Origin: Cliona cf. orientalis
Taxonomy: Eukaryota; Porifera; Demospongiae; Clionaida; Clionaidae
Reading direction: 5' to 3'
DNA: 64,000 nt
NCBI GenBank assembly: GCA_963930775.1
Contig: OZ005690.1
Location: forward strand, 2,402,225-2,466,224
The notes below the pieces were generated by a model. That model saw only the letters and a list, made by a program, of their open reading frames with translations. It made no database searches and was not told where the DNA came from. Of this stretch, positions 1,431 through 36,163 are shown piece by piece. Within the stretch, counting starts at the first letter, position 1. Every line of letters begins with the position of its first letter. The position numbers and the translations under genes were made by a program.

Positions 1431-4400
1431 ATGGTTGAACTGACTCTTCTCGTCACAGCACTAATCACAGGTGTGTTCTGCCAATTGCAATTGATTATTT
1501 AGGATGATTATTAAAAATTCAACTTGCATACAGTTGCTGGAGTTGGATCTGGACAGCTCATAAAGTCCACCAATGACTGCACATGCCCTGGTGATGTAGT
1601 AACATATGACTGCAATGTAACAGGAAGTGGATACACCATCTGGAAAGGGTCAGCCTTCGACTGTCCAAGTGCCAATTTCAGGATTCTTCTGCGCCACTCT
1701 TTATTTGGTACAAGTAGTGGAACCATGGGACTGTGCAGTGACGGAGCCATAATGGGACGCAGTGCCGGAATCACTAGAACTAGCTCAAATACCCCTGTTT
1801 ACATGTCACAATTGACAGTTAACCTCGCCACTGGCTCAAATGTAATTGGACAAGAAGTACAGTGTGTTTATCGCAACACTGCCAATGTGGAAAGGATTGT
1901 TGGCTCGGCAACAATTGGAATAGCAGGTTAAACTTTTTAAATAGGTATTAATTTTTATTAATGATCATGAGGAATCATTAATTTTTAAATTAATAGATTC
2001 CCTTCCTCCTCCGACTATTGTCCGATTGGTTGGAGCAAACTCCGAACAGCTAGTGTTTAACTGGACCTCCGTGGATTCCGATTGCTCTACATTCAATTAC
2101 AACGTAATGTCAAACTGTGGAAGCTGTATTAACACAACAGCCACTACTACAACTTCAGTAGCATGTTCCATCTCAGTTAACATTACCGATAGCATTACAC
2201 AGTGCTCCTTTGGTGTACAAAGTGTAGTCTGTGGTAACGTATCTGGAGTACCAAGTATACCACTTGATGTGACATTGAAAGGTATGCTTACATAATATTA
2301 TTGAGTAGCTACTATACTGCATTAAAATTAATATTGATGCGTGATACTTTAATTTCCTCATCATAATCAGTTCCAGAGTCACCAACAATATCGAGTATTG
2401 TAGCATGGTACAGTGGGCAAGGAGAGAAGCTAACTAAACTAGATATTGAATTCAATGAAGCGGTACATACCTAGCTAAAACATTTTAACTTTTTTGCTGA
2501 GCCTATTGCATTTAAATTTGCTAGCTCATATTAATAGTAATTCCCTTGATATCTACAATTTCATACTACAGGAGAGATTCATGATATCAGAAAGAGTGAG
2601 CGGTTCTGCTCTTTCCTACACTATTTCATATGCTGACTCCAACACTGGTGAAATGTGTAACTCTTTGACCATTTCAGCCTCGTCATGCAAGCAAGGGATG
2701 TGCAAGGTACCCTTTATCAATCCACTGCCCTGCTCTGAGAATGTTGGAGAAGGAGATATTGACATATCAATAACCGCGAACAATCGCTTGGGAAAAGGAC
2801 CACCATCTGTGACCACCATAGGTAAGACTACTGTAAATTCGAATTCATGAATTTGATACACTCAAATTCTAAATTCATGACTGGATTATGGTGCAAGACC
2901 TCAATTGTTTAAAAATTCATATCACAGGTTGAAGCAATAAGTACGTGACCATCACATTTCAATCAGCAAACGGGATTCTATGTACGTTTCTGGGTCAGCA
3001 AGGAGGTCAGGGTGCAATGTCATGTGATGTTGCCTACGGGCCATGTCAGCAAGAGCCATTAGAAATAGTTCGGGGCACAATCACTGCCACAGCGAACATT
3101 GTGAATATTGCGATTGACCCTCAGACAAGTGAATACTGTTATGTGGTTAATGCGAGTAATGGGACATTCACTGTGCTGATAGAGGGCGAGATAACGACTA
3201 GCACTGGTGAGTTTTAATATTATGCATGACATTTTTGGTGCGGAGAAATTTAAATAGTGTGCCAGCCCTGGTGCTACTCGGGGTTACTTAATAGGCATGA
3301 CATTATAATTAATAATTCAAGGTACTGACAGCAAAGAACAACTCTCGAAGGTGCTTAATAGCACAATAAACCATCTTATTTAAGCTATGGTAGAAAATAA
3401 TTTAAAAAAGCTGTGTGTATGCAGAGTATAAGTAATATAGCTTGAAGCATGAGACTCAGAGTACAGTATTCCACAGATGATAATTATTTACGTGTTCATG
3501 TGTAGGTGACCCTATTACAACTGATTCAGAACAGCCGCCTGGTAACAATCCTTCGAATCAAAGTAATGAGGGCTTAGTTGCTGGCATATCTGTCACAGTA
3601 ATACTAATTGTGCTCATTAGCAGTGGAGCTGCTATGCTTATTCTTTATATGTGGCTATATAAACTACCAAAAGGTAATTTAATTTTATTGTAATACCATT
3701 CTCTAATTTAATCCTAATTTTATAAAATAAATGTGTAGCTACCGGAATGAAAAAAGAAACAGAGGAACAAATGCACCTTCTGGGGGATGAGCAGCAATCA
3801 GTACGTGTGCACATCTACTTTGACTTAAAAGACAAGCCAAAAGAATTCATAAGTGCTCTAAAAAAGCTAGACGTGAGTTGAGAATTAGGCCAAATAGATT
3901 GAGATGCAGTGACTACTGTAATAAAATAATTGTCGTAGACATTGCAAATTAATATAAAGAACATCAAAGTTGGTCCACGTACATCATTGGACAAGCTTAC
4001 CGTAAGAAGAGTCTACATGGAGTATTGGAAGGATCTGACGGACGAAGAGAAGCGGGAAATTTTGGATCTGAGGATTGGTGTGACCGGCACTCTAACAGTG
4101 TACTGTAAAGCTAAAATTCTCTATGTTAAGTGTAACAGAGGTAAGCAGTGAATTTTCTTGCTAACGTGTGACTGAGTAATAATATTATTATAATTATGTT
4201 ATTATCGTTTAAGATGCAAAACCTACGCAACAGACGTTGGATATCACAGAGCTTCTAGAAGATAAACCCGGAGCTCTTCTCTCACTATTGGAAGTAGTAG
4301 ACTCAGTGGAGGTATAGCCAGATTTTTAGCAGCAGAAATTAATCATGACATGCATTCTACAATTACAGGAATGCAAACACATAAATATCACAGATATTGA

Positions 4401-4539
4401 TGTTAAGAAGTTAGAGGACTGTACACAGGTGATTATCAGGTTCCTTCCAGACATAGCAGATGACTGGAAAACCAAGTATGATAAGAAACGAGAGGAATGC
4501 AAATCTATTTTTAAACAAACAACAGTTACTGTACTTTAA
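1431..4539 (+). CDS. Rec2: Ig/FN3 receptor with two cytoplasmic ACT-like domains
   Basis: Exons: 1431-1470 (signal peptide MVELTLLVTALIT), 1534-1926 (Ig-like), 1997-2281 (FN3-like 1), 2371-2462 and 2572-2821 (FN3-like 2, split at phase 0), 2928-3206 (beta domain 4), 3506-3673 (transmembrane, GISVTVILIVLISSGAAMLI), 3739-3872 and 3939-4140 (ACT-like 1), 4214-4311 and 4369-4539 (ACT-like 2). Phases agree at every junction. ACT-like 1 reads FDLKDKPKEF then INIKNIKVGP; ACT-like 2 reads LLEDKPGALLSLLEV then INITDIDV. These match the beta1-loop-alpha1-beta2 core of ACT domains (D-x-P-G-x-L, then N-I-x-x-I), known from amino-acid-regulated enzymes. Oddity: exon 2928-3206 opens with an in-frame TGA at 2930-2932, so the allele may encode a secreted truncated form or be a new pseudogene. 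Receptor role is inferred; the ACT call needs a structure search. Confidence 0.75.
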
Positions 4540-5430
4540 TTTTGTTATCATAATAGATTAGCCCCTATTGTTACTGATGCTGAAGCTTCAATACATGACA
4601 TTGTGTAAATGTTTCTCACCTTAATGCCACACTTGTGTTGATTTTATACCAAAGATTTCAGAATCTGATATTACCAGTGGAACTGGTCAGTGTTATTGGA
4701 ATGATCACATTTTATGGATTGATTATGGTTAAACCTATAGATTGTCCATAATAATATTATTTCAACGAATCCACATGCATGTAACTCTATTTCTGTACAA
4801 CTACCAGGTATAGTCAGTATCACACACTAGATGAAAGTATGCATGGATTTCATGCATTTAAGAAATGTGTAGGATAGGGCAAAATTTTCTACACATTTCA
4901 TTTATTTTACAAAAATTCTGCCCTACCCTCTGACAAACAGGTGCTGGAAAGCTCATGTTTTGGTAAGCACGACATAAGGAAATCTTAATTTTGATCCAGT
5001 GACAAATATTAAATTTTAGCTAAGAGCTCATCATGCTTAAAATATTAGGCTCTGGATCTTTCGGACTTGCTGTTGTCATGGCATAATAATCAATGCCTTC
5101 AATATGAATTGGTAGCTACCATGTACATTAATTACTTTCTATCATTGACTGCTTTTTTCGTAGCCGATTGGAATAGATTTTGGACAAAGAAAATTGAAAC
5201 ACAACGTTGATTATAGTTATTCTTTCACTTTCAATCTAAACTATCAAACCAAAACATAATATGCATGATGATTATAGAGATCATGTTACTGCTACAATTA
5301 ACTGATGAATGTGCTGAGCTGCTACACATTATTTTACGTAAGAATGAAATCTTACAGTATCATAGTACTATAATACAGTTTGATCATGAGGTATATTATC
5401 TGCATGCATTGATTCTCTGCATGGCTTAAG
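4540..5430. other. Gap between convergent Rec2 and Rec3
   Basis: No convincing gene. The interval should hold the 3' untranslated regions of both genes. A short inverted string (AAATGTGTAG ... CTACACATTT, about 4864-4900) and a kinase-loop-like string near 5043-5080 are the only notable details. Confidence 0.4.
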
Positions 5431-8126
5431 TTAGCAATTGCGTGTTTGAAAATGCACTACTTCATAGGCTGGATTTCTATCAGTATCAATAGTATGAGAG
5501 GATGAAATTTTGTTGACTGATTCCAACTGGTGTGAAATGGTCTTATTTCGTCGTACTAGGACAGCTATTACTGTCACTGAAATGATAGCGATTATGAGAA
5601 TGATAGCGATTAGAACTCCAATCGAGACTCCAAATGTGAGGCCGCTGATAGCACTGAATGAGCTTGTCAATGAATCACCTGTAACTGCATAGTAATAAGT
5701 GCATGATAAGCTTCAATTATTTGTTAGGTGCATGCCGCACCAGCTGTACATGACATTGTGATTCACCAACAAAAATTCTCATGCCAATCAAAATTCTTAC
5801 CATACAGCAATATTGTAGCTATACACACTTTCTAAGAATAATATAAATAGAGGAAATAATACGTTAGATAGATATCAGGGCACAACATCAATTTTATTTT
5901 CAATTTTCAACGCTTCTGAGTCGTTAATACTATGCATGGTATGGTATACAATCATAAAACTTACTGAATGTTCCCATCACTCGTACAGTGAAGGAGCCAT
6001 TACTAGCCGTCACCATGAACTGATACTCTTGACAATGTTTGAACTGTACCTCACTAGCAACGGATAAATCGAGGACCACGGTATCACTTAGTGACAACCC
6101 TGAAGCTGACTTGCTGCTGACAGGGAATCTTGAACAGTATCCATAAACAATACTGCAACTTGATCGATATCTCTCGTCCATTGGAGGTTGCCATTGAAGG
6201 AATTTACAAGTAGCAGTGTAAAAGTTCTCCTCGAAAGCCACTTCAACAAACGTGTTCTTAATCCCTATCAAATTTATTCATTATAGAGCACTTACGAAAC
6301 ATGCAAACATTTTTAGTATCAACGGTACACATGGCCCCGTGTTAACCTACCGACAGTAGTGCTGTTACTCAGAGATCCCCGTTTCACAATATTAGTGCCA
6401 TATACGCTCATTTGAATACCAGTTGGCTGGGAGCAATGATTAGACAATTGCAAGGGAAGGTTTTGTACATGCTTACAGACACCACTGTGTGGGTCACAAG
6501 CCACAGAAGCTGGTAGAGTTGTAGTGTAGCAGGTCATCCCAGAGGCAGGGTCAGAGTACACAATGGTGTAGTCAGTGGCAGAACCATCCAGTCCATTAGT
6601 GATATTAAATTTCTCCTACAAATTGTATACAAAATAGCGGTCAGCGTAATAATTATGCATGCACTTTGTCTATGGTACATGTACGGAGTGAATCAGAATT
6701 TGAATATCTTTGATTGATTGAGCCAGCTGTAACCAGCTACTGAGTATATATCATGTCCATAATCAAGAACTGTTGCAGCTGGAAGTTTGTTTGTGATCAC
6801 TGGACGGTGTGAATACACGACACCACTAATGGAAATAACCTCAGACCGATACTTAATATGATAATTAATATTACTATTAGATTTTATGCACACATGGATA
6901 CACGCACAATAATTATGGAGCTTTAATTACCAGTTCACTGAAAATGATTGTTATCGCTGATAGATTTCCAGTTGCATAGGAATAGGTAGGAACTGCACTA
7001 ATCACTGGAGCATCTGGGACTGAAAGAAACAGTCACGATCAGATAGATAACTTTTTCCAATTTACCTTTCAAATCCACAAAAATACTGCTGCTATTGCCC
7101 ACAACATCACCACACACTACTGATTGTATCGTGAACACACAGCGATCACCAACTGATACTGGTACGCCTCTACAAGTGGCAGTAGTCCTTTTAGTGGTGT
7201 TAGGACACCAACCACAGTTGGATGCTATTGCGTAGTGTAAATTCGAACAATTGAAGATCACTGGACTCCAGACGAAAATGAGACTGAAGGTCTCTTCAAC
7301 GGCGTCCTCCACTATTCGGCTTATGGTGGTGTCATTGGGTGGAGGGATGGGATCTGTAGACATAAAGTGAAGTCTACAATAGTATTAGCCCTACCCCACT
7401 CCCTCATCATTTAAAGCCGTGAGTGACTCTCACTAAAGGTGTGCATGTATCATGAATATTGGACACAGGGATAAATAATTATTGAGGAAGTCACGGATAT
7501 TATAATAGTCGTATTATTATCCACTGGAACTGTTACAATAATAATATTATATGATTCAGAAGTGTTTCACGTATCGTATTATACAATTTTCCATGCATTT
7601 TCCCTATAGCTAGCTATCTACAGGAAGGAATAGCTAGTTGGATATACCCTTATTTCAGAGGTCTTTAATAATAATATTATTATGTGAGGTTCCGCTATTA
7701 GTTGTTACTTTATTGTGCACCTGTTGTTATATCAATGTAGTCAGTTCCCACAACTGTTGAAGTCCCATTGCTGTAGGTGCACTGCACACTTTCGTTAATC
7801 ATACTCCGATTCAAATTTCCTATATCTAATCTCGAGATGTAACGATTATCTTCAATCCCAATACCATATGCAGTGATGGGTCTGTCACGACAGCTCATAT
7901 TAAACTTTGTAAATTCCCTCAAGCTGTGGCTCAAGAAGATCTCGTTGTCAATCTTGGGACAGTCAATAGCAGATCCTTTCCAAATTGTGGCACCTCCTTC
8001 AGTAACTATGGTGCACTCATAAGTCAGAGAGAAACCCAGGCAAGTGCACTGATTTATGAGAGATAGTTCATTCCCGGCTGCATGTGAAAACAAGACAAAA
8101 TTAATTAATAGTGATTGTCGTACCAT
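5431..8126 (-). CDS. Rec3: Ig/FN3 receptor with short NPAY tail
   Basis: Exons: 7721-8126 (signal peptide MVRQSLLINFVLFSHAAG and Ig-like domain in one exon), 7066-7353 (FN3-like 1), 6931-7019 and 6351-6615 (FN3-like 2 split at phase 0), 5965-6264 (beta domain 4), 5431-5684 (transmembrane and tail). Phases sum correctly to 533 residues. The helix is about 25 residues (GVLIAIILIIAIISVTVIAV), followed by RRNK. The tail ends with HTIDTDRNPAYEVV; NPxY motifs in other receptors bind PTB domains or direct endocytosis. Rec7 shares TIDT-x-x-N-x-AY. There is no ACT or death domain. The ATG at 8126 is immediately followed by a GT, so an alternative ATG-only exon was considered, but it breaks frame. Confidence 0.8.
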
Positions 8127-8999: not shown

Positions 9000-9000
<1 letters not shown>

Positions 9001-10597: not shown

Positions 10598-13500
10598 TTT
10601 TTTTTTTTTTCCCAGCAAAAGTTTCTTTGCGAATAAAAGAACATTGTACATGAAATTAAATAATAACCCCAGAACTCAAGGTTACATGACTATAGAAGTA
10701 GCATGATCTTGGCAAGGGCAAAAATAATAAATAGAAAATGATAAATATGACATATAGGGTATGCAGACTACTTGAAAGTGAATGTTTCAGGAAATAGAGT
10801 AGTTCATAATAAGGTACGTGACGGTGACCATACTTTCTCTAGTCTTGCCTTAAAGATCACTTGAGAGGCACCAACAACTTTCCGAGCTGCCTCATCCATA
10901 GTCTTCCTTGCCAATTGTTTCGTTAGTAACGGAGCTGCTTTCAGTAGAGTTCTCTGGGAAGTTGGTAGCCAATGACCGAGTGACCCAATCTCAATCGTGT
11001 AAAGGTTTGAAACAAAACCTTTTGCTTCCAGGTCACTGAGAGCGTGCAGATAAATATCTTTTTGTGACTTGCGATCTCGAGCATTGGACAGACTCTCCAG
11101 AGAGTTGTGAGGGATGGTGAGCTCAATGAGTGTTACCTCATCCTCTCCTAACAAGACGATATCAGGTCGAGCTGAGGTTACCAGGGTGTCGTCAGGGATG
11201 GTAGCCACTGGGTTTTCACTCGCTCTCATGCCTGGTAGGTCAGCGTAGAGAATTGTGTTACAGTCGAGGTGCTCCTTAATGGATTTCACCAGAATCTGGA
11301 GAGCAGAGTCATGCCGCCAAGTATACCTTCCTTGCTGGAGTGCCTCAGGGCAACTGGAGAGGATATGGTGAATGGTAGGCTGTGTGTGGCCACAGAGGGG
11401 GCAGGTGGAGTCCATTCTTAGCCTCCATCGTTTCAAATTCAACGGAGTAGGGAGGGTGTCAGAGCCTGCTCTCAGGAGGAAAGACATCTGACCTGCTGGG
11501 AGGCCATCCATGATTCTTCTCCAGACATGATTTGAGCTTTCTAGTTCAGCAACTTCAAGGATCTTTCTTTGAACAGTTAGCTCTTTTAGTCTGTTATCAT
11601 GTTTCTCAGTCATATGGAGCCTAAATTCCCTCTTGCAATTGTTGTTTAGAGTTTTGCTGGAGATAGTTGTGATTGATGATCTTGCTTTGTGCAGCAGGTC
11701 TACTGTAGATGGTTGGATCCTTTGATTCTTACAATATTCTTCCTCCGTGAGGATCGACAGAATATCCTCAATGACGGGATCCTGCGAAGTGGAAATAGAT
11801 GCGAGAAAAGTTAGTTTCGCCTTCGATCTGAGGTCAGACAGTGATGGTATATCAATCACATTTGGGTGGTGAAGAGCAGAGGTAGTAAAGCATCTTGGGA
11901 GATTTAGCCATCGTTTAATCATCCTGAGGGCGGTAGCTTGCATTTTCTTGATGGCCGTCTCCGGAATTGGGTCAACTGCCAAGGCAAAGTGGAATGAGGG
12001 CACCAGGTAACGTTTATAAATCCATAACTTGTACTCGCCTCGTACATGCACTCGGTCTAAATTTTCCAGTTTCCGTTGGAAAGTTGAGATGAACTTTTTG
12101 CCCGATTCAAAGGTGTTGAGTTTTTGTGATGAGGTCTGGAGTTGCCCCAGGAACTTGGTTGGACCTGAAGTGATGTTTCTGGTGGATCCCTGACCGACCT
12201 GAAATGAGGCAGACTTAATGATTTTCTTCCCATCAAACACAAATGATACACATTTTGGGGGTTTCAGTGTTAGATCGAGGTCTTGGCAGGCATTGGAAAT
12301 TTCCTTTAGGGCTTCAGCGTGGTCTGCTGGGGAGGACGAAATGATAGTAAGGTCATCGGCAAATCCTTTAACCTTGTGTGGTATAGAACAGCTTGCCGGG
12401 GAGCCTCCTACTGCGGTGTCGTTCATTGGTCGAAACCATTTGTCCGTTCCACGTGCGGGTTTCCATTTCAGGTCTGTCAGTTTGATCACTTCAGTCAAGT
12501 TCCCTCTGCGGTACTTGAGGCAAGTCGATCCATCGCTCTGAATAGAGATGACTTTAGCGAGATACCATCCCGTCGGCTCGTTGGAATTTGGTTCATCCCA
12601 GAGAGCGTAGAGATAGGAATTGATCTTGGGCAACTCGTGAGAGGAACTTGGCAACCTTAAGCAGAAGCCACAGGTGTTCAAGGACTGAGCTAACTGGATG
12701 ATGGGATTAAAAGCGATGAGGAAGATGAGAGGTGAGAGAGTGTCTCCTTGGAAGACTCCTCTGCCGATCTTAAACCTGTCTGTGGACCACTTCTTCGTCC
12801 GCACATACGCCGTCAACTTTGAATACAAATTTGCAATATAGGAAGTGAACTGCTGTGGAAGCTTACAGTGTGATAACATGTCCAGGATCAATTCGTGGGA
12901 GACAGAGCCAAAAGCATTGGCCAGATCTAAAAAGGTCATGGCGAGGGGTAAGCCGTGCTGGAGAGCGTTTTGTACAATGGCGGACACAGAAAAAATGTGC
13001 TCCATCGTGCCATTAATACCAGTCAAAAAGCCTTTTTGGAGGCTAGCATCGATGATGTTGTTTTCCAGGGCGAACCGTTCAAGTCGTAAAGCGATGATCT
13101 TATGATATAACTTGCCAATAGCAGATGTCAAGGCTATGGGCCGGAAATTGGCTGGCAAGTGGTCCTCTCCCCCCTTGTAGACTAGCTTGATTCTTGCCTC
13201 ACACCATGACGCGGGAGCTGTGTGTTTCTCAAGAAGGATCTTTGAAAAGAGTGTTGCTAAAAAATGATGGGTGGACGGCATCTTCTTGAGGTGGTGGTAG
13301 GTTATCCCGTCTTCGCCTGGGGAGGAATTTGATGACCTCTTTGCGAGAACTCTCTTGATAGAGCCAGGTGTTATTGCTGATAAATCAAATGGTGTCATTT
13401 CATCTAGGTCGGGTGCTGGCATGACCGCGTTAACCCATTCGGGGAGACCAGGCTTCTCAGGGGTGTTGTATGCAGAATTTGTGCCACTAGTGACATTTTC

Positions 13501-13880
13501 AAAATGATTGTACGCTTCGGCTGCACTAAAGTTGGGTTCAACGTCAGCACTGGTATCCTTACATGCTCTTTTTGCAAAGTTCCATGGGTTTTCACGAAAT
13601 GCTCTCTCTTGGCGTCGCAGATCGTTCTTGTGGTCATGCAAACGCTTTGCGAACAGGCATTTGTTGTGTGCTCGAAGGGCATTAAAAAATTGACGGGGGT
13701 TCGATTTTCGCATCTTACTATGACCTTGTTTTAGAATCTTCAGTCTCTCAGTTACCTTTTCAATTTTCCTGGTGCGGTGGAGTACACTTCGATTTGATGT
13801 CGAGCTGTCCTGGTCGATAAATCGCTCTAGGTGCGCTCTCAATAGAATTCCGAATGTATCAGCAGCTTCTGCATATTAAA
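10598..13880 (-). mobile_element. Non-LTR retrotransposon, 5' truncated
   Basis: Contains one long minus-strand ORF, a 3' untranslated region (10611-10803) and a 3' terminal A13 (plus-strand T13 at 10598-10610). The ORF frame closes at a TAA near 13876 without any upstream ATG, so the 5' end appears lost, as is usual for such elements. Absence of the element from the second segmental copy (22.4-22.8 kb) suggests insertion after that duplication. Confidence 0.75.
10804..13842 (-). CDS. Reverse transcriptase / restriction-like endonuclease polyprotein
   Basis: Open for about 1012 codons. Reverse-transcriptase motifs include FRPIALTSAIGKLYHK (about residue 235), TFLDLANAFGSV, GVFQGDTLSPLIF and the catalytic FADD at about residue 494. 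A zinc-knuckle-like CPLCG..HH..C lies near residue 813, followed by RPDIVLLGEDEVTLIELTIP (about residue 890), which resembles the C-terminal restriction-like endonuclease of R2-type LINEs. A roughly 70-residue insert (about 404-472; YALWDE, GWYLAKV, DGSTCLKYR) between RT motifs looks Tudor-like. The first in-frame ATG is near 13716; upstream codons belong to the truncated 5' part. No frameshift or stop interrupts the frame. Confidence 0.85.
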   Translation of the reverse strand: MRAHLERFIDQDSSTSNRSVLHRTRKIEKVTERLKILKQGHSKMRKSNPRQFFNALRAHNKCLFAKRLHDHKNDLRRQERAFRENPWNFAKRACKDTSADVEPNFSAAEAYNHFENVTSGTNSAYNTPEKPGLPEWVNAVMPAPDLDEMTPFDLSAITPGSIKRVLAKRSSNSSPGEDGITYHHLKKMPSTHHFLATLFSKILLEKHTAPASWCEARIKLVYKGGEDHLPANFRPIALTSAIGKLYHKIIALRLERFALENNIIDASLQKGFLTGINGTMEHIFSVSAIVQNALQHGLPLAMTFLDLANAFGSVSHELILDMLSHCKLPQQFTSYIANLYSKLTAYVRTKKWSTDRFKIGRGVFQGDTLSPLIFLIAFNPIIQLAQSLNTCGFCLRLPSSSHELPKINSYLYALWDEPNSNEPTGWYLAKVISIQSDGSTCLKYRRGNLTEVIKLTDLKWKPARGTDKWFRPMNDTAVGGSPASCSIPHKVKGFADDLTIISSSPADHAEALKEISNACQDLDLTLKPPKCVSFVFDGKKIIKSASFQVGQGSTRNITSGPTKFLGQLQTSSQKLNTFESGKKFISTFQRKLENLDRVHVRGEYKLWIYKRYLVPSFHFALAVDPIPETAIKKMQATALRMIKRWLNLPRCFTTSALHHPNVIDIPSLSDLRSKAKLTFLASISTSQDPVIEDILSILTEEEYCKNQRIQPSTVDLLHKARSSITTISSKTLNNNCKREFRLHMTEKHDNRLKELTVQRKILEVAELESSNHVWRRIMDGLPAGQMSFLLRAGSDTLPTPLNLKRWRLRMDSTCPLCGHTQPTIHHILSSCPEALQQGRYTWRHDSALQILVKSIKEHLDCNTILYADLPGMRASENPVATIPDDTLVTSARPDIVLLGEDEVTLIELTIPHNSLESLSNARDRKSQKDIYLHALSDLEAKGFVSNLYTIEIGSLGHWLPTSQRTLLKAAPLLTKQLARKTMDEAARKVVGASQVIFKARLEKVWSPSRTLL

Positions 13881-15002: not shown

Positions 15003-15059
15003 TATAGTATGGTTACAAACCGATTATGATTATGAAATTGTTTGTTACACTATAATTAG

Positions 15060-17950
15060 ATGTTTTTGGTCAACTGGAGACTATCAGTGGTTGTACGTGT
15101 GTGGGGTACACTGCGACATATCAGTGCACTGCAGCTGGAAATGGAGTAACGATATGGCAAGGGAAAGACTCGTTCAATTGTCCACGGAACAGAATCGTCC
15201 TGCGTCATGAGAATTTTATCCGCCCACGTGGTGCTTATGGAGAATGTAACAGATTTGTTGGACAGAGCTTACCCTATATGAAAGGAGACAATTATTCATC
15301 ACGATTGACGGTACCTATGACATCCGAACTGAATGGCACGACTATCAAGTGTGTGTACGAGGACCTTACAAAATTTAATAAAAAGTCAGAAATTGGACGA
15401 ACTCAACTAACCTTAACAACAGGTATCTATCGGAATAATTAGAAGCGTCAAATTCTTAGAAGAAGTACAGTATAATATTATGCTACTCATGATCAGTATT
15501 CTTATGTATTCATCTTAAGTTCTTTAACTATTATATAATACAGAGCCGTTTGATCCCCCAAATGATGTCCATGTGGCCAATGCTGGACAAGGGAACCTAT
15601 CATTTTCATGGAGCGCCGTAGCAAACAGTTGTGCATCTCTACAGTATGAAATCAATAGTACATGCGGTGATTGCCCCAGTGTTACTAATGCCACTTCAGT
15701 AGTATGTACCGTTGATGATACCATATCTAGAGAGTGCAGCTTTAAGATTAGAAGTGTCGTATGCGATAACTTGACTGGAAGATGGAGTGACCCTATCAAT
15801 GTGACCCTAAATGGTAAAATTTTCCTATTTTGTTGACAACTTTTCGCTGATATTAATAATTGATATATTCCACAGCTACTGAGCCCCCAGTAATCACAGA
15901 TGTGCAAGCTACTTCTGATGCTAATGGGATGACAGAATCTGTTATTGCAGGTGAGGTATACTCATGCAGTGTTGAGCGTTCTCTCCAAGAAAAATTCGAT
16001 GGAGGACATAATTTGGACAGTTCCTGTAGCCACATCAAAGCCTTAGAATTCATTTTTCCCTTTCCCATGTACATCAAATTAAGATAAATATTATGTCTCA
16101 AGTATGCTGGGGAGAATACATCTGGGTAGCTATGATCAGGCATTTAATAATATACCATAGATCGGGATATTTTCGTGGTAAAATATTTCACTTGTTAAAC
16201 TTTCGTCGCATACATATTACATCATTGTATTAACTAACGTGCACAAAATATTTTGCGTATTTAATTTTTGTTGGGAAAGATCGTCGACGAAAAAGTTTTA
16301 ATGACGAAAATTTCCCGATCTATGATAAAAATTATTATTTAATTTATTGTTCTACACATATTATTGATGCAACACGTTGTAAAAGTACAGATGGTGATCA
16401 TGCACGACATCAGCCCATGGTTATAATCCTTGCCTCAGTACTTGTTGCTGTACTACTGATGACTGTGGTTGGATGGGCAATAATTATTATAATTGCGTTC
16501 AAAATCTGTCGGAGATATCCTCTAGATGGTAAGAGATCTTAATAATAATTAACACAGTGATTTTATGTACCGTATTGCCTCTAATTTAACAGACACCAGA
16601 AAAATAATAATTATTACTTTGGCCAATGTCCGCTATAATTAGAGCACACGAAAATAGTCAGCGTTCGAAGTATCCGATGAATTAGAACACGCTTTCACGC
16701 ATGCGCATTCGGTCAAGTGGACGTGCGATCGAGCAGCTGCAGAGATTGAGCAAATGAGACGGTACCTGGAGCTCCCTGTTCATGGTGGGAAAGAGAACAA
16801 CTCGCCTCCTTCAGTACCACCAAAGAAGCAGCTGTCCATTGCAAATTTTGCTCGATCAGTACCACGCTAGCGCGCGTGAGCTGTCCAACGATGTCCGGAT
16901 AGTTAGAACAACAAAAATTCAAACTTCATTGACTGTCCGGTGTAATTAGAGGTAAAAAATAATTCGAAATGGTGTCCGGATAATTAGAGATGTCCGTTAA
17001 ATTAGAGGCAATACGGTATTATGATGATCACGAAGAGATGTTCTTTAATTGGCAGAGAGTACCACTGGACAAGGTTTTCATGCTATATTTGAGCTGCTAG
17101 ATGAACCATGGCAATTATTAAACATCCTTCAAGGTATAAAGGTAAGTTACGTACCAACCTATAGTAGATTATAGCTGACTTAACTCTACCACTGTCTTGT
17201 ATCAATTATTATCACTGTATAGGACCTCGATGTAAGTATAATGGACACCAAGATTGGCCGATGTACTCCAAAAAAAACTAGAAAGATCTATTTGCGCTTC
17301 GATGGAAACTTTCCCACACAACTGGCTGAAAGGATGAAGCGTAAGATTGATGAACGAACAACTACTGGTCCTGGTAGGAGTATGATGGACAGCGAAGTTT
17401 CCAGTAGCTGTTCAATTCAACCTACTGAAGTAGATGAGTTAGGTATATTAATTTTTATGCTGACTAAAGGAACTATAGTTACATTATGTTTATTACTGTT
17501 GCAGAATCTGGAGTGGATGATACACAAACATGTGCACTATCAATTTTTTGTGGTATGTACATACACAGCCATAATAATAATATTATTATTATCATGATAT
17601 ATAGTCTAATAATAATGTTATAATTATTATTACATCGGTAGGACCATGCTCAAAGACGTACACATATTCACGTCGTCTTCCTCCTAAACCAGGTGCTCTG
17701 TGCTCATTAATTGAAGGTATCAGAAGCAAAGATGTAAGTGCATAATATAGTTACTATTTTTGCTGCATGACATTGTATTATTATGATTATAAACTTTTCT
17801 CAATAATAGAGCTCTTACAATAGTATAAATATCATTGGGATGGCTGGGATCCCCAAAGGACAAGAGACTTTGATTCACTTGAGATTTGTCAGTGATCTTG
17901 AATTGCCAAGAAGTTGGAGACGGGACTTTAACAGTATAAAGGTCTGCTAA
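15060..17950 (+). CDS. Rec4: short Ig/FN3 receptor with two ACT-like domains
   Basis: Exons: 15060-15422 (Ig-like), 15544-15813 (FN3-like), 15876-15950 (linker), 16391-16528 (transmembrane, ILASVLVAVLLMTVVGWAII), 17056-17141 and 17223-17442 (ACT-like 1), 17505-17552 (linker), 17642-17733 and 17810-17950 (ACT-like 2). Phases agree throughout. ACT-like 1: FELLDEPWQLLNIL then DLDVSIMDTKIG. ACT-like 2: LPPKPGALCSLIEGI then INIIGMAGI. The ectodomain lacks the second FN3-like and fourth domains found in Rec2 and Rec8. No signal-peptide exon was found; the upstream DNA is full of mobile elements, so the gene may use a distant first exon or may have lost it. Two MITEs sit in its introns. Confidence 0.7.
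16153..16327. mobile_element. MITE in Rec4 intron
   Basis: Inverted termini TACCATAGATCGGGATATTT and the complement of TATCATAGATCGGGAAATTT, TA at both edges, 175 bp. It lies between the linker and transmembrane exons. Confidence 0.7.
16568..17018. mobile_element. MITE / decayed DNA transposon in Rec4 intron
   Basis: Inverted termini TACCGTATTGCCTCTAATTT and complement, TA at both edges, 451 bp. The interior has several TGTCCGx(T)AATTAGA repeats near both ends. No intact transposase is readable. Confidence 0.75.
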
Positions 17951-22885: not shown

Positions 22886-23012
22886 AGACCTTTTATAATA
22901 TCATTGGGATAGCTGGGATCCCCAAAGGACAAGATACTTTGATTCACTTGATTGTCAGTGACCTTGAATTGCCAAGAAATTGGAGACAGAACTTTAACAG
23001 TATAAAGGTCTG
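22886..23012 (+). pseudogene. Relic of the last Rec4 exon
   Basis: Matches 17812-17945 over nearly its full length (ATCATTGGGAT.GCTGGGAT, CCCCAAAGGACAAGA.ACTTT), but with small deletions that break the ACT-like 2 frame. All other Rec4 exons are missing between 22822 and 22886, so the second Rec4 copy was deleted internally. Confidence 0.75.
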
Positions 23013-23136
23013 ATAATAATCAGCAGATTACTCTCCTCAATACATCAATCATTCTTAGAGTACATATACATATGAACACGGATGTTAAATGCTGCTTAGA
23101 GCAGCGCTATATAGCCATAATATCTACACTCATTAT

Positions 23137-25566: not shown

Positions 25567-28500
25567 TTAGCTGTCTTGAAATATGTGATCCGCTAGATGA
25601 TGAAGCCCAATCTCTTTAAGAGCATGTGCCACAATCCTCCAAGTCAACTGACCACGATAATTCATCAGCCAGTAGTCCAGCACCTCCACTATACACTGGT
25701 GGGGAGGGTAGTCCCTACACTTTTCCAGGATCTCGCTGGGCACACCGACTACGACACCAAACTCGTACCAATGAGGGGTGACATCATCCCGAAGTTGAAT
25801 CAGCAGGCTATCCAGATCAGGATGTTTATCTAGTAAAAGTAAACTGTAAGAATCTGTAACTATTAATTGTACACTGATAAGCTCTCATATAAAAATAAAT
25901 AATTGTGCTAATATGGGCACCCCCATGCATGATCCTATCATAATAATCAGTTAAAATTCTAAAAAGAGAATCAAAAGGCTATAATATATAGTTTGAGGCT
26001 ATACATGTAGTGGGTCACACACACTCAGTCTGTTGGAGCATGTATGAAAGATCATGAAGCTGCTGTATACATGTATAGTTATACATTATTATGATCTCCA
26101 TGTATCATCCGGCATTCCCAAAACCTGGACGGGCTCACCTGCAGCTGGTTTTGAATCAGCACTGACAGTTTGCTTTACTTCAGCATACTCCACTTTGTCA
26201 TCACAAGGTGGCACTAGAATCATCTGACTGTTTTCTTGAGAAGTAGTGCTTGGACCAATATCAATATAGACTGGGTCGGGAACAGGCATAGTTTGGGACT
26301 CAGGTGGCTGAAATAGAAATTGACAGTGAAAATTTACAAACATCAGTGATATAAGATAGCTATGCATACAGATAAATGTATTATCATAATAATAAAATTT
26401 AATAATAGAGCTTGTATTAATTTACCTCATCCCAAACTGACTGAAGTAAGCTATAGATTCCAATTCCCTGTAGCCATAGATGTAAACAACAAACATGTTG
26501 GCGTGAATGATCTAATAAAAACAGCTCACTTGTTCATTAAGGCCTTGTGGTTCCACTTCACTGTTAGCAGGCCTACAATATGAAAGTTTACTTATTTGCT
26601 GCAATGCTAACAATAATATAATAATGTTATTATTAATTTGTTCAAGTTTGCTATACCTATGTGTTGTATTTTGATTAGTAACCTGAACTTCTCCACTATG
26701 AACTGTTTTCAACTTTTTCACTATCACAAATATCATGGCAAAGAGTACTCCCAAAAGAGTGATAATGATAACTGCAGCAATAACAGCTGTAGCTATAACA
26801 GTTCCAAGCATGGATCCTGAACTACCACCAGTCCATGTATCTATCAACAAAAAAATAAATCTCACACATGCCACGGTACACAATGTCATGCAATCATAAT
26901 ATTCGATATTACGATACCCAAAACGAGGGTGGTTCCCTCAATTAGAACAGTGAATGTTCCATTGCTGGCAGTGACTGTGAAACAATACTCTTCTCGTGGT
27001 TGAAAGTGTTCAGAATCATTGAAGGGAAACAAAAGTACTGCGCTACCAGAAGTGGTTGTATTGGTAGTAAACTTTCTCTGATTTTGTGATTTGCAGTTTT
27101 CTCTAGAGAGCCCGTACTCAATACTACAATATTTTTCACAGTTTTCTGTTTGTTGATGGAAAATGCAGGTGACCACTTTTGAAGCAAAATCAACTGATAC
27201 GTCCACAAACTGATCACTATTCCCTAAAATTTAAGTATACAGAGAATATTATACTAATGAATCAGATACAGAAACACCGTAATTATGTGAACCTGGTATG
27301 GTCACTGAATTCGATGGTAGTCCACTTCCTAATACGTTAGTTCCTATGCACAATTAGAGTGAACTAAACCATTTAGGGTTAATGCTAGGATGAGTCGTAC
27401 ATGACCACACCAATACAAACACCTAATAATATAATTGTGACTCCCACTTAATTTTGATACCTGATACAGTCACAGTGATATTATTATCTGATGATAAGCT
27501 TAAGAGAGAAGTTGAGGGAGATACTTGATCCTGATCATATTCACAGGTTCCATTCACACAAGATTGACATGATATTACTTCATTGTAGAAGCGGAAACCA
27601 GAGTGTGAATTAATGGTGTAGTTGATTGTGTATGAAATAGGCGAACCATCTACTCCATTAGCAATATTGAACATTTCCTAAATTTTGGTATTATAATCAA
27701 TAGCTATAGAGATTACAAACTTGGGATCTTACTGTTTCATTAAATCTTGTTGTGAGCCTCAGTAAAGTTTTGCTGTTGTAGGAGTATGTTGGGATAACAT
27801 CAATTTCAGGGGAATCCGGTGCTTTTGAAAATGCATCACATTTATAATTATTATAGTTTACAGCAAAAATGAGAAATACCTCTAAGAGTTACTTGAACGT
27901 TTCCACTTTCATTTCCAGTGATATTGTGACACACTATTGTCCGTACTGATAATAGACACACTTGATCATACATGTCTAAGGAGAAACCAGTACAAGTGAC
28001 AGTGGTATCATTCATGACATTAGGGCAGTGACCGCAGTTGGACGCATTAATGAGGTAGTGAACAGCTTCACATGAAGGCTCAACTGGTTCCCATCGGAAC
28101 ACTAATTGACTAGCATTTGCTTCCGTAAGATAAATATTTTTCGGTGGTGGAAAAGGATCTGCAAAGAATAGTATACTGAAGTTTCTTTTTCACAAGCTAT
28201 AGTCATCCTATAGATTAACATTACCTGTTGTGAGAGTTATCCTTATGAGATTTTCAGCAGCTCCCGGAATATCATGAAAGCAGCTGATACTCATGCCAAT
28301 CATTTCAGGACTCACTGAAACAGTGAGCTGTGATATGTAGGTGTCATTCTCGGCTCTGATAGCACATCCAACTATTGCCCCACTATTGCAGGTTAACGTT
28401 GTTTCAATGTTAAAGAAGGTTATCTCATTGCTTGTAGCAGGGCAGTTGAATGCAGATCCTCTCCAGACTATAACTCCACTTCCAGTGACTCTGCACTCAT

Positions 28501-29241: not shown

Positions 29242-31723
29242 TCATTTATTGAAGAATCCTGAAAATGAAGCATATGCAGTATTCTGTCCTGTATCAATGG
29301 TGTTGGTAGGAGAAGAGGCTGGCTTCTGAGGCCGAGGAGCCATGGCCATGTGCACGTATTCTAGCTCTTCGTAGATGGCTGGCTGCTCAATTGTTTTGGC
29401 TTTTAGACGCTCTAGATCCACTTGAAGACGTTTTCTTGATCTGACCAAGATTATGGTGATGACAACGAATGTAATGGTGATGATAATTATTATCATTGTC
29501 ATTACTCCCATTGCTGCTCCAAATGGTAGCATTCCAATCGTGAATTCGAACTTTGATGTTGATACTGAAATACCTATAATGTGAGCAAACAATAATAACA
29601 TTATTGATTTTTATCCGAAAAAAAAGCATCAAGATAGCTACGTATCAATCAAGATAACAGCCTAAGTTTGCATTGTGACCAAGAAACTGAGGAAATCCAT
29701 TAATAATAATTATTATTTCTCCACCACCCCTCATTCACACATGTATGCACCATGATAGTGAAACCATTAAATATAACGTGTGTACATGGTGCGAAAAATG
29801 TCAGATGCATGTAGCTATTATTAAATATAGCTACCTTTTGTGAGCATTGATCCTTCTACTAAAACAGTGTGTGTTCCATTGCTGGCAGTGGCAATGAAAC
29901 AGCATTCCTTTTGTGATTGATCATGAAGGTGATTATATTCAGGAAATCCAAGGTACACCTTATCAGATGAACCTTTACTGCTCTGATGTGAAAACATCGT
30001 GCAAGTTTCAGTTGGGACTCCATAGGCAATACTGCAGGTCTTTTCATTTGTTGATTTGGGCTGGTTAAGGAACAAACAGGTAGCAATATTTGAAGCCGGA
30101 TCGAAGGAAAAGTCAACAAACTGATTTGTTACTCCTGTGAGATTTAAATTTAAGTACAAACAGCTCAAATATAAACTTCTATTCCTAATTATTGTCATAC
30201 GTAAACACAATGAAATTTGCTTACAATAGTGCACCTCTATGTACCTGATACTGAGATTGGGGAAGATAATAATCCACTTCCCAGTCTGTTAGTCCCTGCA
30301 GCTTGTACTGAAATTTCGGTTGTATCTGGACACGATGAAGATGACAGTTCAAGCTTGTGTTCACAAGTACCGTTCGCACATGATGCCGCTGACACAGTAG
30401 CAGATGCACAGGCTGTACCAGTAATAGAATCGGTGTACGTAACTGTGTACGATGAGGTAGATCCATCTATTCCATCAGAGATATTAAGTGGTTCCTACAC
30501 AATAATAATATTATCATCGTATGACAAAACTAAAAATTAAATGATAATCTAATATTTGATTTAGCTAGTATCTATACCAGTTCATTGAATTGTGTTGTCA
30601 ATGCAGTCAGTCTTTTAGTTTTGTGTGAATATGTTGGGATGACATTGATCACTGGAGCACTGGGAGCTGCATTGTAAATAATTATCGAATTCGTCAAACA
30701 TAATATTATTAAAATTAATAATATTTACTTTGATCTCTTTTAAATTTATAATGTTAAAAGAGATCAAATTAAGTAAATATGAGAACTTACTTCTTAATGC
30801 CACTTGAACCCTTCTACTTTCATTTCCAACAATATTGTTGCACACAACTGACCGTACAGCAAACGTACACATTGGATCGTTTGTAAGTGGTCTAATAATA
30901 TTATTGTGACAAGTGACTGTGGTATTGTTAGTGACATTGGCACAGTGGCCACAGTTGGATGAAATGATGAGATAGTGAATGGTGTTGCAGGTAGAGAAAA
31001 CAGGACTCCAATTAAAAGTCATATGGGTGGAATTTATTTCCACTAGATGAATCTCACTTGGTGGTGGTGGTGGGACTGTTGTCAATAAAAAAATTAATAA
31101 TTAACTCCTAGTAGTACGGGTATCCCATGACTGTATGTATAATTATACCTCTTGAAAGGGTTAATATTGAGGAGCCAATGAGCTCTGCGGCTCCACTAGG
31201 TCTATCATGAAAGCAGCTGATGTTCATGCCAATCATTTCAGCGCTCACTGAAACAGTGAGCTGTGATATGTAGGTATTATTCTCGGCTCTGATAACACGT
31301 CCAAGTATTGCTCCACCATTGCAGCTTGCTTCAATGCCAGATCTAGAGCTACCATGAAGGATGTGTATCTCATTGCCTGTAGCAGGGCAGTTGAATGCAG
31401 ATCCTCTCCAGACTGTAACTCCACTTCCAGTGACTCTGCACTCATACACCTGATCATATCCTTCACAGGCACAACTATTTACTGCGACCAAGGCACTATT
31501 ACTCCCCATTGCATAATCTGAAATAATATACCACTATAAAAACTATATCATTGAAAGAACCAAATTATTTTGTCTTACTGAAGTGACTGACACAGAAGAT
31601 TAAAGTACTGAGCAGTACAGCAGATTCTTGTTTCCTCTACATTATGCAAATTTATATAGTGAGACAAGAACTAAGTTATAAAATTAGTAATTATTATGAT
31701 GCATCGATCTATTAACATACCAT
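29242..31723 (-). CDS. Rec7: Ig/FN3 receptor with tyrosine-rich tail
   Basis: Exons: 31721-31723 (ATG alone), 31579-31636 (signal peptide, SAVLLSTLIFCVSHF), 31149-31517 (Ig-like), 30791-31075 (FN3-like 1), 30578-30666 and 30245-30494 (FN3-like 2), 29835-30134 (beta domain 4), 29242-29573 (transmembrane and tail). Phases agree; about 561 residues. Helix AAMGVMTMIIIIITITFVVI followed by RSRKR. The tail has AIYEELEYVHM (two tyrosines in YxxL / YxxM context, the second like a PI3-kinase SH2 site) and TIDTGQNTAYASF, sharing TIDT-x-x-N-x-AY with Rec3. It pairs head-to-head with Rec8. Confidence 0.8.
30721..30780. repeat. Hairpin inside a 124-bp Rec7 intron
   Basis: Near-perfect inverted repeat: ATATTTACTTTGATCTCTTT and complement with a 10-nt loop and a 2-nt bulge. 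It fills most of intron 30667-30790. Confidence 0.75.
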
Positions 31724-31970: not shown

Positions 31971-34900
31971 ATGGTAAGTCCCTGCCGTCTATTATTTATT
32001 GCACATGTGTTTATCAAACAAGTCAGCATGATAAGACTGCTATCCATGTTTACTCGCGCGAGCTCCACCCGCTCAGCAGGCTTGCGGTCTGCAGCTGCCA
32101 GGAGCTTATAATTATGCTTGTACGTACCTGCTAGCCCCTCGATGAAACGTGTGACAAAATTAACACGTAACCTCATCCCAGGGAGAGCTGGAGCCAGGAA
32201 AGAGAATTAAGCTGGTAGCTAGCTAGCCATGTTGTGCACATTGAAAAGATCGGGGTGCCTGGGGACGAGGCCGCAGTCAGTGGACCTAACCTTCATACAC
32301 CAAAGGTCCTGCATGGGTACAAGAGTATTGTGCACCTGACCAGATGTTATCAGATTCTCTTTCCTCTAGAGAACCAGCATGAAGATGTGGCTAAACAATA
32401 TTATTAATTTTAATTTTTTCGGATTAATTGCAGCATTCTGTATATGGACTGGCCATTGTGACCTTTTTCATTATTGCTCTAGTAGTACAAGGTAAGTTTA
32501 GCTAGACTCAGTACCTGCATTGCTTATGGATTATGGATAAGCATCATTGCCATCATCAGGAAAAGGATGAGTGTATCTGAGTGCCCAATAATAATATAAT
32601 TACATGTATGCCATGGTACATGCACTCTGGTAAATGCCACAGTCCACCTAATGAACCATTAATTGCCCCTCATACATACACATCACATTATGCATTGTGA
32701 GATTGTAGATTTCCTTACAGTGAATTCATTACTGGAATCTGGACGGCTTATCAAGACAGACTCCTGTACTTGTCCTGAAGGAATCATTACCTATCAATGT
32801 ACAATTGACGTAAGTCAACCCGGAGGTTTCACGATCTGGAATGGAACAGCATTCAGCTGTGGCCCATTTAACCATATCCTCTTGCGTCACAACTCATTCA
32901 ATTCTTCAACGGGAGCATTTGGATCTTGTAACGATGGGATAATATCAGGGCAGAGCTTGGGAGTCAGCTCTGATGGAACTTATGTCTATACTTCACAACT
33001 ACAAGTGAATATCACCAATAGCTCGAGATCGGGACTGGTTGGAAGGACAGTGCAATGCGTGTACAGCCCTGATGCAACTATCTTCAATGTCATCAATTCG
33101 ACAACAATTGCGATAACAGGTAATAGCCCTGTATATGAAACAGGTGCTTGCTTAAACATATGCAACTCTAACAAATTTCACTACTCTCAGAGCTGAGAGA
33201 GAGAGAGAGAGAAATGGGAAGAGAGAGAGACTCGAATTTCTATTCCGTATTATTCCCTGTATTGCTCTTCACATTATAGATCCTCTTCCACCACCAAACA
33301 ATGTTCAATTGACACATGTGACGTCAAATCAGCTTACATTCAATTGGAGCTCGGTACAGCCAGATTGCTCAACTCTTCAGTACCGCATTGAGTCAAACTG
33401 TGGCACCTGTGTCAATCAACAACCAACTAGTATGCTAATATCTTCTGCTACATGTTCTTTTGAGCTACCAATAAACTCTAATGATGTATGCAATTTTGCC
33501 GTTCAAAGTACCATCTGTGCCAATAGCATCATAGGTAGTTTGAGTACTCCTATTAGAGTTACTCTGAAACGTAAGTTGACTATCATTAACACATTGATAT
33601 TATTATTACTAACTGTATTATAGTTCCTGATTCACCAATGATTCAGTCAGTGATACCCACATACAACAAGGAAACTAAATCGTTGATCAATGCTGAAGTA
33701 ATTTTTGCTGATGTGGTAAGCTAAAATTAATGACCCTAAGTAGTATTACCCTATACCCCTTTAAAGGTCATCAGATAACTGCATTCATTAGTTTACACAT
33801 ATTTGAATATTATACCAAATTTAATTGACCATGAATAATTTGTGTGCATTGTTATTGTGCAGGGTTCATTCAACATATCAAGGAGTATTGACGGCGCTGC
33901 CCTCTATTATGTGATAAATTTCATTGATTCCAACCCACGCGTGTGCGGTTCATCCAACATTTCGGCATCCTCCTGTGATGAGAATAGGATTTGCACTGTT
34001 TCACTTATTGATCTAACAGATTGTTCTCAGGATGGGAAAATCAATCTTTCTCTATCAGCCTTTAACTTACTTGGAGGGGGTCAAGCCACCAACTACAGCA
34101 TAGGTACATGTGCATATTAATAACTAATCAAAAATTTTAATAGCTATGGATTGAGCGTTAATTTTATGACTTTTGATCATCGGATGTGCATTATTCCAGA
34201 TGGCACCAATCAGTACTTTGATGTGTTGTTTGAGTCAGCAACAAGAGTCGTTTGCAATTTTCATGATCCGCCAGAAAATCAATTCCTAAGAAATAAATCA
34301 TGCAATATTACGTATGGACCTTGTGGGCAAGCATCATCCACCACAATGACTGCGCAAAACATGATATCGTCTGATTCTCTGACGGTGGTCATCGACTTGC
34401 AGTCACAGTTAGCTAATGGATACTGCTACACAGTCACCGCCAGTAATGGTGCTTCATCCACTGTCAAGATACAGGGAATGTTTAGTGAGTAGCTACACCT
34501 GTCAATTCATCTGTTTACCATTTTATCTGTAGCTATATTAGTTACTATGGTTTGCCTGCATGAGCAGGGTTAATTGCCCATTAAGTTTGGGATTGGTATA
34601 AATACTACTGAATTTTTCATGCATGTGGCTATCATGATTATGATGAGCTATTTAGAATGACATAAGCAGCTTATAAGCTTAGATCTACCAGGTGGCTGCC
34701 AGTGCATACATGAACTTACAAATTTTCATATTAATTTTACGCAGATTTTGTTGTTTTTTTTTCCATAGCTGATTCTCAAGGAACTAGAACTGTTGCAATA
34801 GCCGTTGGTGTTGTCGTTCCAGTACTGGTGATAATTATCACTCTCGCTATTGTAATCATCGCAGTCATTACTACAAGAAAATATCGAAGACAAAGAGGAT

Positions 34901-36163
34901 CTGGTATGGGATAGCAATAATTGAAGGACTCAGAACCAGATGCAGCATTGAGATACCGTAGCCACCCTTAATGAGCTCCTATAACTTTATATACGGTTTA
35001 ACAACTTAGAGTAGAGCCACTAGTCTAAGAGTGCATTGGTGCATTCATTGAGCTGTTTAGACAATTTCTTACGTATAATTATTCAGTTTGGAGTCATAAC
35101 CTTCCTTGCCATGCATTATGCAGGTAGACAAGAAGTCCACAAGAGGTTATTAGATGACACCGATTCAGGAGATAATGTTATTTCTCCACACATCATTTAT
35201 GATCTTGAAGACAGGCCTGAGAAACTCACTGAATCATTGAGAATTCTCAGTCAGGTTAATATTACACCATGCTCCAGTGTATCCTCTTATGTTGTATAAA
35301 TGGAACTTTTTTTGTTTTAGAATGATGTAAATATTAAGAACATCAAGATTTGTCCAAGTGCTAAGGACAAGTCTCGGAGAACCGTCTATGTTGAATGTGA
35401 TCATAGCCTCGAAGAAGATGTCAAGGAAAAATTGGAGGATGAAACTACACAACTAGGATTACCAGGCACTCTGAGAGTTTCCACACAACCTGAATCAGAG
35501 ATAATAGAAAAAGATGAAGGTATGTACAGTACGCTGAATTTTCAATACTGATGATATCATTACATATAGATGCTACTTCAAAACGTGTCAAGGAAATTGA
35601 GGAAGTGCTCAAGCATGAACCAGGAACCCTCTGTTTGTTGTTAGAGATGTTTCAAGAAGCGGAAGTAAGTAACACAATCATAGATAATGCCGGGATTGGA
35701 GATCGGAAGGATCAAGACCCAGTACAGTATTTCCGGGAGGGGGAGGGGAGGGTTAGTCTCGCTAGCCAGACTTCACACTCCAAAGTATTTAGTCAGTTCT
35801 GGGTATGTGTATTTACTATGAAGAACAAAATGCTGTGGAATGTGAGGTTCTAGCTCGCGAAACCAGTTATCTGAGTTTTGATAGAAGAGGGACAGAGCAC
35901 ACAACTTCAGCGCAAATAATATTATGCTTCACACATCTGCCTACAATTAATTAATTTTCATGCAGGAATTGCATCACATCAGTATCACTGACATCATCCA
36001 CGAAGATGTACGTGGGAGAAAGAATTGTAAGAAGGTCATCATTAAATTCATTCCAGAATTATCAAGAACTTGGAAAGATAATTACAACATAAGGCGAAAA
36101 GAATGTGATTTTATTGTGTCTGACTCAATGAGCGATGAGAGTACCTCTGAATCATTGTTGTAG
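31971..36163 (+). CDS. Rec8: four-domain receptor with two ACT-like domains
   Basis: Exons: 31971-31973 (ATG alone before GTAAGT), 32434-32491 (signal peptide, GLAIVTFFIIALVV), 32721-33119 (Ig-like), 33280-33570 (FN3-like 1), 33624-33715 and 33863-34103 (FN3-like 2), 34200-34484 (beta domain 4), 34769-34903 (transmembrane, AVGVVVPVLVIIITLAIVII), 35124-35254 and 35321-35519 (ACT-like 1), 35570-35664 and 35966-36163 (ACT-like 2). All phases agree; about 708 residues. ACT-like 1: YDLEDRPEKLTESLRIL then NDVNIKNIKICPS, strikingly like the N-terminal ACT domain of aromatic amino acid hydroxylases. ACT-like 2: LKHEPGTLCLLLEMF then HISITDI. It is the cleanest ACT-tailed member and has no lesion. The ATG-only first exon is the least certain part. 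Confidence 0.8.

Follow-up and report, generated by a model that had tools for sequence, protein, structure and literature searches.

Sponge receptor genes with a tandem ACT-like module as predicted cytoplasmic tail

We analysed a stretch of 64,000 nt from the sponge Cliona cf. orientalis (contig OZ005690.1, here C2, positions 2402225-2466224; called the window in the following), with genome searches extending over the 217-Mb assembly. Three genes in this window, Rec2, Rec4 and Rec8, together with two further ACT-tailed paralogues upstream of it (RecA and RecB), would encode single-pass receptors whose cytoplasmic tail is a tandem module of ACT-like repeats, each made from two exons. Judged on the family as a whole, the first repeat is very probably ACT-like, and by sequence it stands nearest to the regulatory domain found in the aromatic amino acid hydroxylases, the enzymes in which animal ACT domains are mainly known. 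The second repeat is best read as a diverged copy of the first. As to the role of the module, we lean, on balance, towards a folded surface for self-association or docking that likely works free of ligand.

The tails of Rec2, Rec4 and Rec8 were reconstructed from GT/AG junctions, and the intron phases were then checked. All three read across their introns with no internal stop and run to a stop codon. The order is the same in each gene: a transmembrane exon (best 19-residue hydropathy 2.55 in Rec2, 3.07 in Rec4 and 3.45 in Rec8) is followed by repeat 1 and then by repeat 2, both split into two exons; Rec4 has an extra linker exon between the repeats, which is absent from the models of Rec2 and Rec8. 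Introns are of phase 0 inside each repeat and of phase 1 between modules, transmembrane exons and modules being phase 1-1 units. The phase-0 intron interrupts every repeat between helix 1 and beta 2, and therefore no repeat is contiguous in the DNA. A preliminary description of this DNA, made from the sequence alone, had placed a membrane helix and two repeats at the ends of these three genes. This layout is borne out, its coordinates are correct, and the peptides quoted there are exact: LLEDKPGALLSLLE belongs to Rec2 repeat 2, YDLEDRPEKLTESL to Rec8 repeat 1 and LPPKPGALCSLIE to Rec4 repeat 2. The P-G turn of the repeat motif it proposed is confined to the second repeats, with G in 3/3; in the first repeats of the five genes this place is taken by K, E or W. 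The catalytic domain that follows the regulatory domain in hydroxylases is not found here, as the stop codon comes after repeat 2 in Rec2, Rec4 and Rec8. The search for signal peptide exons gave none for Rec2, one weak candidate for Rec4 and one hydrophobic start for Rec8 (at 32379).

The first repeat and its likeness to hydroxylase domains

The closest match of a single repeat is that of Rec8 repeat 1 to the NCBIfam model for phenylalanine 4-monooxygenase, TIGR01268 (E = 2.5e-5 for the isolated repeat and 1.4e-5 when the whole tail is searched); TPH (0.012) and then acetolactate synthase small subunit and phosphoglycerate dehydrogenase take the lower ranks for the whole Rec8 tail. With Pfam ACT (PF01842), whole tails gave E = 0.0011 for Rec8 and 0.089 for Rec2, and of the first repeats taken singly Rec8 was matched at 3e-4 (20.9 bits), with no ACT row for the other four. 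One of the six window repeats, Rec8 repeat 1, thus has a significant ACT match of its own, and the refuting outcome named in the preliminary description, six repeats all without such a match, did not arise. Hydroxylases also dominate the comparisons with the PDB. They make up all eight phmmer matches of the Rec8 tail (best E = 0.2), four of the nine matches of a profile of the five first repeats (TPH2 at 0.03 comes first, ribosomal protein eL20 has 0.035), and 11 of the 33 listed matches of a profile of all eight repeats, including the top six (PAH 0.0027, TPH2 0.0044), directly behind which stands annexin A8 (E = 0.027). In a profile-profile comparison, run one pair at a time, the five first repeats matched five hydroxylase ACT stretches with P = 1.3e-7 and a probability of 94%.

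To these searches we added a hidden Markov model (HMM) built from six hydroxylase ACT stretches and scored against 5000 shuffles per repeat, where shuffles unreported by HMMER were counted as falling short; their number was highest for Rec4 repeat 2, at 1095 of the 5000. The real score was matched by 0 shuffles for Rec8, 2 for Rec2, 6 for RecA, 24 for Rec4 and 62 for RecB among the first repeats, and by 15 (Rec8), 313 (Rec2) and 1338 (Rec4) among the second. The preliminary description had held that the pattern argues against chance; this is clear for the first repeats and mixed for the second, of which only that of Rec8 has a clear margin. The repeats were also ranked against a background of 8412 open frames, drawn from the window and from further retrieved loci, with 18 loci overlapping the window excluded. 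Above Rec8 repeat 1 stand only the two PAH genes of the genome, themselves part of the HMM training set, and six of the eight spliced repeats lie within the top 21; repeat 1 of RecB and repeat 1 of Rec4 are outscored by two unrelated frames. Rec2 repeat 2 comes 70th and Rec4 repeat 2 6375th.

Several results weigh against this assignment. No repeat passes the curated Pfam ACT cut-off of 27 bits (five first and three second repeats scanned, best 20.9), and the genome-wide Pfam ACT search recovered only the two PAH genes and no receptor. The whole Rec4 tail has no match in Pfam or NCBIfam. Taken singly, one of the five first repeats has a hydroxylase match in NCBIfam; Rec2 and Rec4 have none, and RecA and RecB match only unrelated families (best E = 0.0036, for RecA). 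An ACT-like status of Rec4 repeat 1 by itself would rest on its homology to the other first repeats, and the ACT fold of the tails is predicted from such similarities. The preliminary description's ACT-like tails hold for the first repeat by library searches, but support for a full ACT domain in repeat 2 is indirect.

Intron positions speak for the relation to hydroxylases. According to variant names in a table of PMC5759169, human PAH has a phase-0 intron 2 after codon 56 (c.168, Glu56) and a phase-1 intron 3 that separates c.352 from c.353 (c.353-2); the c.168+5 variant name also appears in PMC10127316 and PMC6081236. When the receptor junctions were put by hand onto the alignment used for the shuffle HMM, the intra-domain intron of the first repeats fell at human codon 56/57 in four genes, Rec2, Rec4, RecA and RecB (the last two have a two-residue alignment gap just past it); that of Rec8 lies one codon further on. 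The second repeats of the three window genes have it three codons later, within a longer loop. It is of phase 0 in 8/8 repeats, and the next intron after the first repeat is of phase 1 in all five genes, as in human PAH. Under a uniform distribution of intron sites across 79 codons and three phases, the chance of a phase-0 site no more than one codon away is 0.013; since the repeats are not independent, the match counts once. The genome's own PAH genes do not follow this pattern: these two neighbouring, nearly identical genes (C13:542326 and 545142) have the ACT region in a single exon, lacking human introns 2 and 3, which also speaks against a hydroxylase origin and means that they are not an obvious donor as they stand now. 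This leaves three readings: loss of the introns from PAH in this genome, a different hydroxylase as donor, or a chance agreement of the introns. Taken together, the best explanation of the sequence data is that repeat 1 descends from, or shares a common ancestor with, the hydroxylase regulatory ACT domain, repeat 2 being a diverged duplicate.

The second repeat and the predicted role of the tails

Repeat 2 is akin to repeat 1 in the profile-profile comparison (P = 3.6e-5, probability 71%) and retains a P-G-A/T-L turn. Less favourable are the searches with the second repeats alone, which gave no ACT match in Pfam or the PDB, and their weak similarity to the hydroxylases (P = 0.0047, probability 7%). 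Moreover, the last exon is too short for a fourth strand in Rec4, RecA and RecB, and in RecA and RecB this exon is all of repeat 2 that was recovered: the first half was sought between their other exons and not found. Only low-scoring frames came up there, and one with a KPG motif, in L056, was judged a chance occurrence. Rec2 repeat 2 matched threonine ammonia-lyase in NCBIfam (E = 0.0032 in the whole tail, 0.0098 alone); this was not counted as proof, since RecA matched an unrelated family at 0.0036. In PADLOC, none of the six window repeats had a match with E of 1 or below.

Does the module bind an amino acid? The Phe sites of the human PAH regulatory domain combine ExVxAL (43-48) and YxF (77-79) from one protomer with residues 61-67 from the other (PMC4822156), and GAL and IESRP are named as ligand motifs in PMC3828330. 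We mapped the pocket residues on the eight repeats in a single alignment. Gly46 is present in 0/5 first and 3/3 second repeats, Ala47 in 0/5 and 2/3, Asn61 in 4/5 and 2/3, and Ile65 in 3/5 and 2/3, respectively; Glu66, Ser67 and Tyr77 are absent from all eight. A PAH-type Phe pocket (ExVxAL, N61..I65xS67, YxF) is thus not found in any of these repeats, and a PAH-type amino-acid site in the tails is unlikely from their sequence. With most of the pocket residues gone, neither metabolite sensing nor the coupling of cell-surface recognition to metabolite state put forward in the preliminary description finds support; the second suggestion made there, a reuse of the fold for dimerisation, seems to fit better.

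The loss of most of the pocket argues for a ligand-free use. According to PMC4822156, Phe drives dimerisation of the PAH regulatory domain and TH dimerises without ligand, the latter a domain of an enzyme and not a receptor tail. Plant bHLH factors, transcription factors with one such domain each, likewise contain diverged ACT-like domains, modelled on PAH 5FII, some of which dimerise (among 42 maize domains, 12 did so in yeast two-hybrid assays; PMC8202348). Because the pocket is mostly lost and some such diverged domains dimerise, we favour, by analogy, self-association or docking over metabolite sensing. In the mechanism that we propose, engagement of the ectodomains would cluster the receptors, and the ACT sheets, whether of a single tail or of different tails, would pair side by side, probably without an amino-acid ligand, as the TH regulatory domain does. 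The paired sheets would then present a partner-binding face; pairing, partner and signalling role alike are predictions.

Among the alternatives, we first consider that the repeats belong to the TRADD-N-like, ACT/RRM-related domains of animal immune and death signalling proteins rather than to hydroxylase ACT domains, and that they recruit signalling partners as adaptors. The TRADD-N fold is related to ACT and strongly expanded in the sponge Amphimedon (PMC8195603), and death domains are encoded by adjoining receptors on the opposite strand, which makes this a serious rival. Most sponge TRADD-N proteins described in that source have death-like domains within one and the same chain; in the present cluster the death domains are on other genes. 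However, Pfam returned no TRADD_N row for the three window tails and the eight repeats (HMMER filters drop most matches above E 0.1), and TRADD-N is absent from the PDB match lists, where hydroxylases rank first. The model PF09034 finds nothing in this genome and may therefore be too narrow for this purpose. We regard a TRADD-N identity as unlikely.

An amino-acid-gated receptor seems to us quite unlikely. Here the two repeats would be joined in a PAH-like pseudo-dimer and share a single composite pocket, to which repeat 2 contributes its P-G-A-L loop and repeat 1 its beta-2 strand; an amino acid would switch the tail. The Phe site of PAH is indeed built from two protomers, and the residues are distributed accordingly, with Gly46 and Ala47 in repeat 2 and Asn61 and Ile65 mostly kept in repeat 1, but the loss of Glu66, Ser67 and Tyr77 throughout this one alignment and the seemingly incomplete repeat 2 of Rec4, RecA and RecB stand against it. 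Its evolutionary form, in which a hydroxylase allosteric domain was recruited by exon shuffling and duplicated to give an ACT pseudo-dimer tail with a single composite amino-acid site, we hold to be improbable; if true, recognition outside would be read together with the amino-acid state inside. Finally, a remote ferredoxin-like resemblance, that is, a fast-evolving folded or partly disordered tail of no ACT ancestry with a partly convergent motif, would suit the mostly weak single-repeat matches, the unrelated family found for RecA, the shuffle-like scores of the Rec2 and Rec4 second repeats and the two background frames above RecB and Rec4, but is very doubtful given that Rec8 repeat 1 tops all shuffles and, the own PAH genes excepted, all background frames, and that intron position and phase agree with PAH.

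Paralogues, ectodomains and neighbouring genes

RecA and RecB share the repeat 1 intron phases of the window genes (coordinates of all features are collected in Table 1). Genome-wide searches with the three tails and the paralogue peptides gave no ACT exon outside this cluster, the matches elsewhere (on C1, C16 and C19) having E = 0.9 or worse, although such single-protein searches score only few first-pass candidates and diverged copies could escape. In contrast, an FN3 query, with 150 of 387 candidates scored, gave at least 149 matches (E up to 1) that are spread over many contigs. Between the first repeats of RecA and RecB, non-synonymous divergence (dN) is 0.27 and synonymous divergence (dS) 0.34 (46 synonymous sites), which indicates little constraint and is a further point against the role proposed above; in the last exon the values are 0.16 and 1.54 (26 sites) and point to constraint. 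All other pairs appear too diverged for such a comparison. The unequal dS along the two genes, 0.34 against 1.54 with few sites, is a hint that one part of the gene has undergone gene conversion.

Ig/FN3 ectodomains are a reasonable reading of the sequence, though Pfam fn3 stays below its cut-off: the joined frames of Rec8 reach 16.5 bits (cut-off 25; E = 0.0096). The joined ectodomain (397 residues) has 20 Cys and 12 N-glycosylation sequons, and the membrane helix is strong. Rec2 has an FN3 paralogue match at C2:2404217-2404513. Just upstream of the window (L053:136-888, +), the 5' half of Rec2 with its Ig and FN3 exons recurs as a near copy. The duplicated last exon of Rec4 (Table 1) has no further Rec4 tail exon beside it.

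Tail types in the window divide by strand, with the plus-strand receptors ending in ACT pairs. Among minus-strand receptors of the same FN3 family, Rec5 and Rec6 have death domains above the cut-off of Pfam Death (E = 1e-5 and 7.9e-5). At locus L053 two death domains fall below this cut-off, one in what is likely the tail of Rec1 (0.0041) and one in a further gene (7.6e-4). By eye, the death-domain exon of Rec5 (18621-18900, -) has an interrupted frame near its start compared with that of Rec6; this may reflect decay of the Rec5 copy or a different splicing pattern. Rec3 and Rec7 (5431-5712 and 29242-29610, -) have short tails with the tyrosine motifs NPAYEVV and IYEELEYV, which we take to resemble NPxY or YxxL docking motifs. 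Three pairs are arranged head to head, Rec1/Rec2 (1064/1515), Rec3/Rec4 (8132/15056) and Rec7/Rec8 (31533/32663), each ACT-tailed gene of the window being paired with a receptor of a different tail type; the layout may mean shared promoters. Between Rec3 and Rec4 lies an open frame of 1023 residues (10804-13875, -), presumably a LINE-type reverse transcriptase, and directly 3' of the receptors are several frames (36508-40628) that we assume to be short-chain dehydrogenase genes.

Table 1. Coordinates of the ACT-tailed receptor genes and associated features (window positions unless a locus, L, is given)
Feature	Position	Strand	Remark
Rec2 ectodomain (Ig-like, FN3-like), approximate span	1515..3217	+	open frames 1515-1931, 1945-2295, 2479-2850, 2933-3217
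Rec2 transmembrane exon	3506..3673	+	phase 1 both ends
Rec2 ACT-like repeat 1, first half (beta1-alpha1)	3739..3872	+	
Rec2 ACT-like repeat 1, second half	3939..4140	+	
Rec2 ACT-like repeat 2, first half	4214..4311	+	EDKPGALLSLLE
Rec2 ACT-like repeat 2, second half and stop codon	4369..4539	+	
Rec4 ectodomain, approximate span	15056..15836	+	open frames 15056-15442, 15528-15836; FN3 match C2:2417767-2418045
Rec4 transmembrane exon	16391..16528	+	phase 1 both ends
Rec4 ACT-like repeat 1, first half	17056..17141	+	
Rec4 ACT-like repeat 1, second half	17223..17442	+	
Rec4 linker exon between repeats	17505..17552	+	
Rec4 ACT-like repeat 2, first half	17642..17733	+	PPKPGALCSLIE
Rec4 ACT-like repeat 2, second half and stop codon	17810..17950	+	fourth strand would not fit
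Relic: duplicated last ACT-like exon of Rec4 with 3' flank	22894..23109	+	84% identity, 242 aligned columns
Rec8 ectodomain, approximate span of open frames	32663..34492	+	
Rec8 transmembrane exon	34769..34903	+	phase 1 both ends
Rec8 ACT-like repeat 1, first half	35124..35254	+	spliced repeat matches TIGR01268 and Pfam ACT
Rec8 ACT-like repeat 1, second half	35321..35519	+	
Rec8 ACT-like repeat 2, first half	35570..35664	+	KHEPGTLCLLLE
Rec8 ACT-like repeat 2, second half and stop codon	35966..36163	+	
RecA	L052 4194-5718		last exon in L056 from 1545
RecB	L055 1-1424		last exon from 4745
Receptors with tyrosine-motif exon and death domain	18621-19327, 25567-26421; L053:1756-2314, 4492-5117	-	

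Relation to known systems

With the PAH/TPH regulatory domains, their best sequence match, the receptor repeats share a hydrophobic beta 1, a charged turn, a helix and a V-N-I/L-x-x-I strand, and with human PAH also the position and phase of the intra-domain intron. Unlike these enzymes, the receptors combine a tandem pair behind a membrane helix with the lack of a catalytic domain, and have lost Gly46/Ala47 in the five first repeats and Ser67 in all eight. In the open full-text literature on sponges and metazoan receptors, outside which subscription papers and preprints lie, we recognised no description of ACT domains in such receptors. Paired ACT tails beside death-domain receptors of the same ectodomain family suggest that a metabolic regulatory domain was moved into membrane signalling. 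This raises a testable question, namely whether the tails dimerise and whether an amino acid changes this, and the exon phases may record the route by which the domain was recruited.

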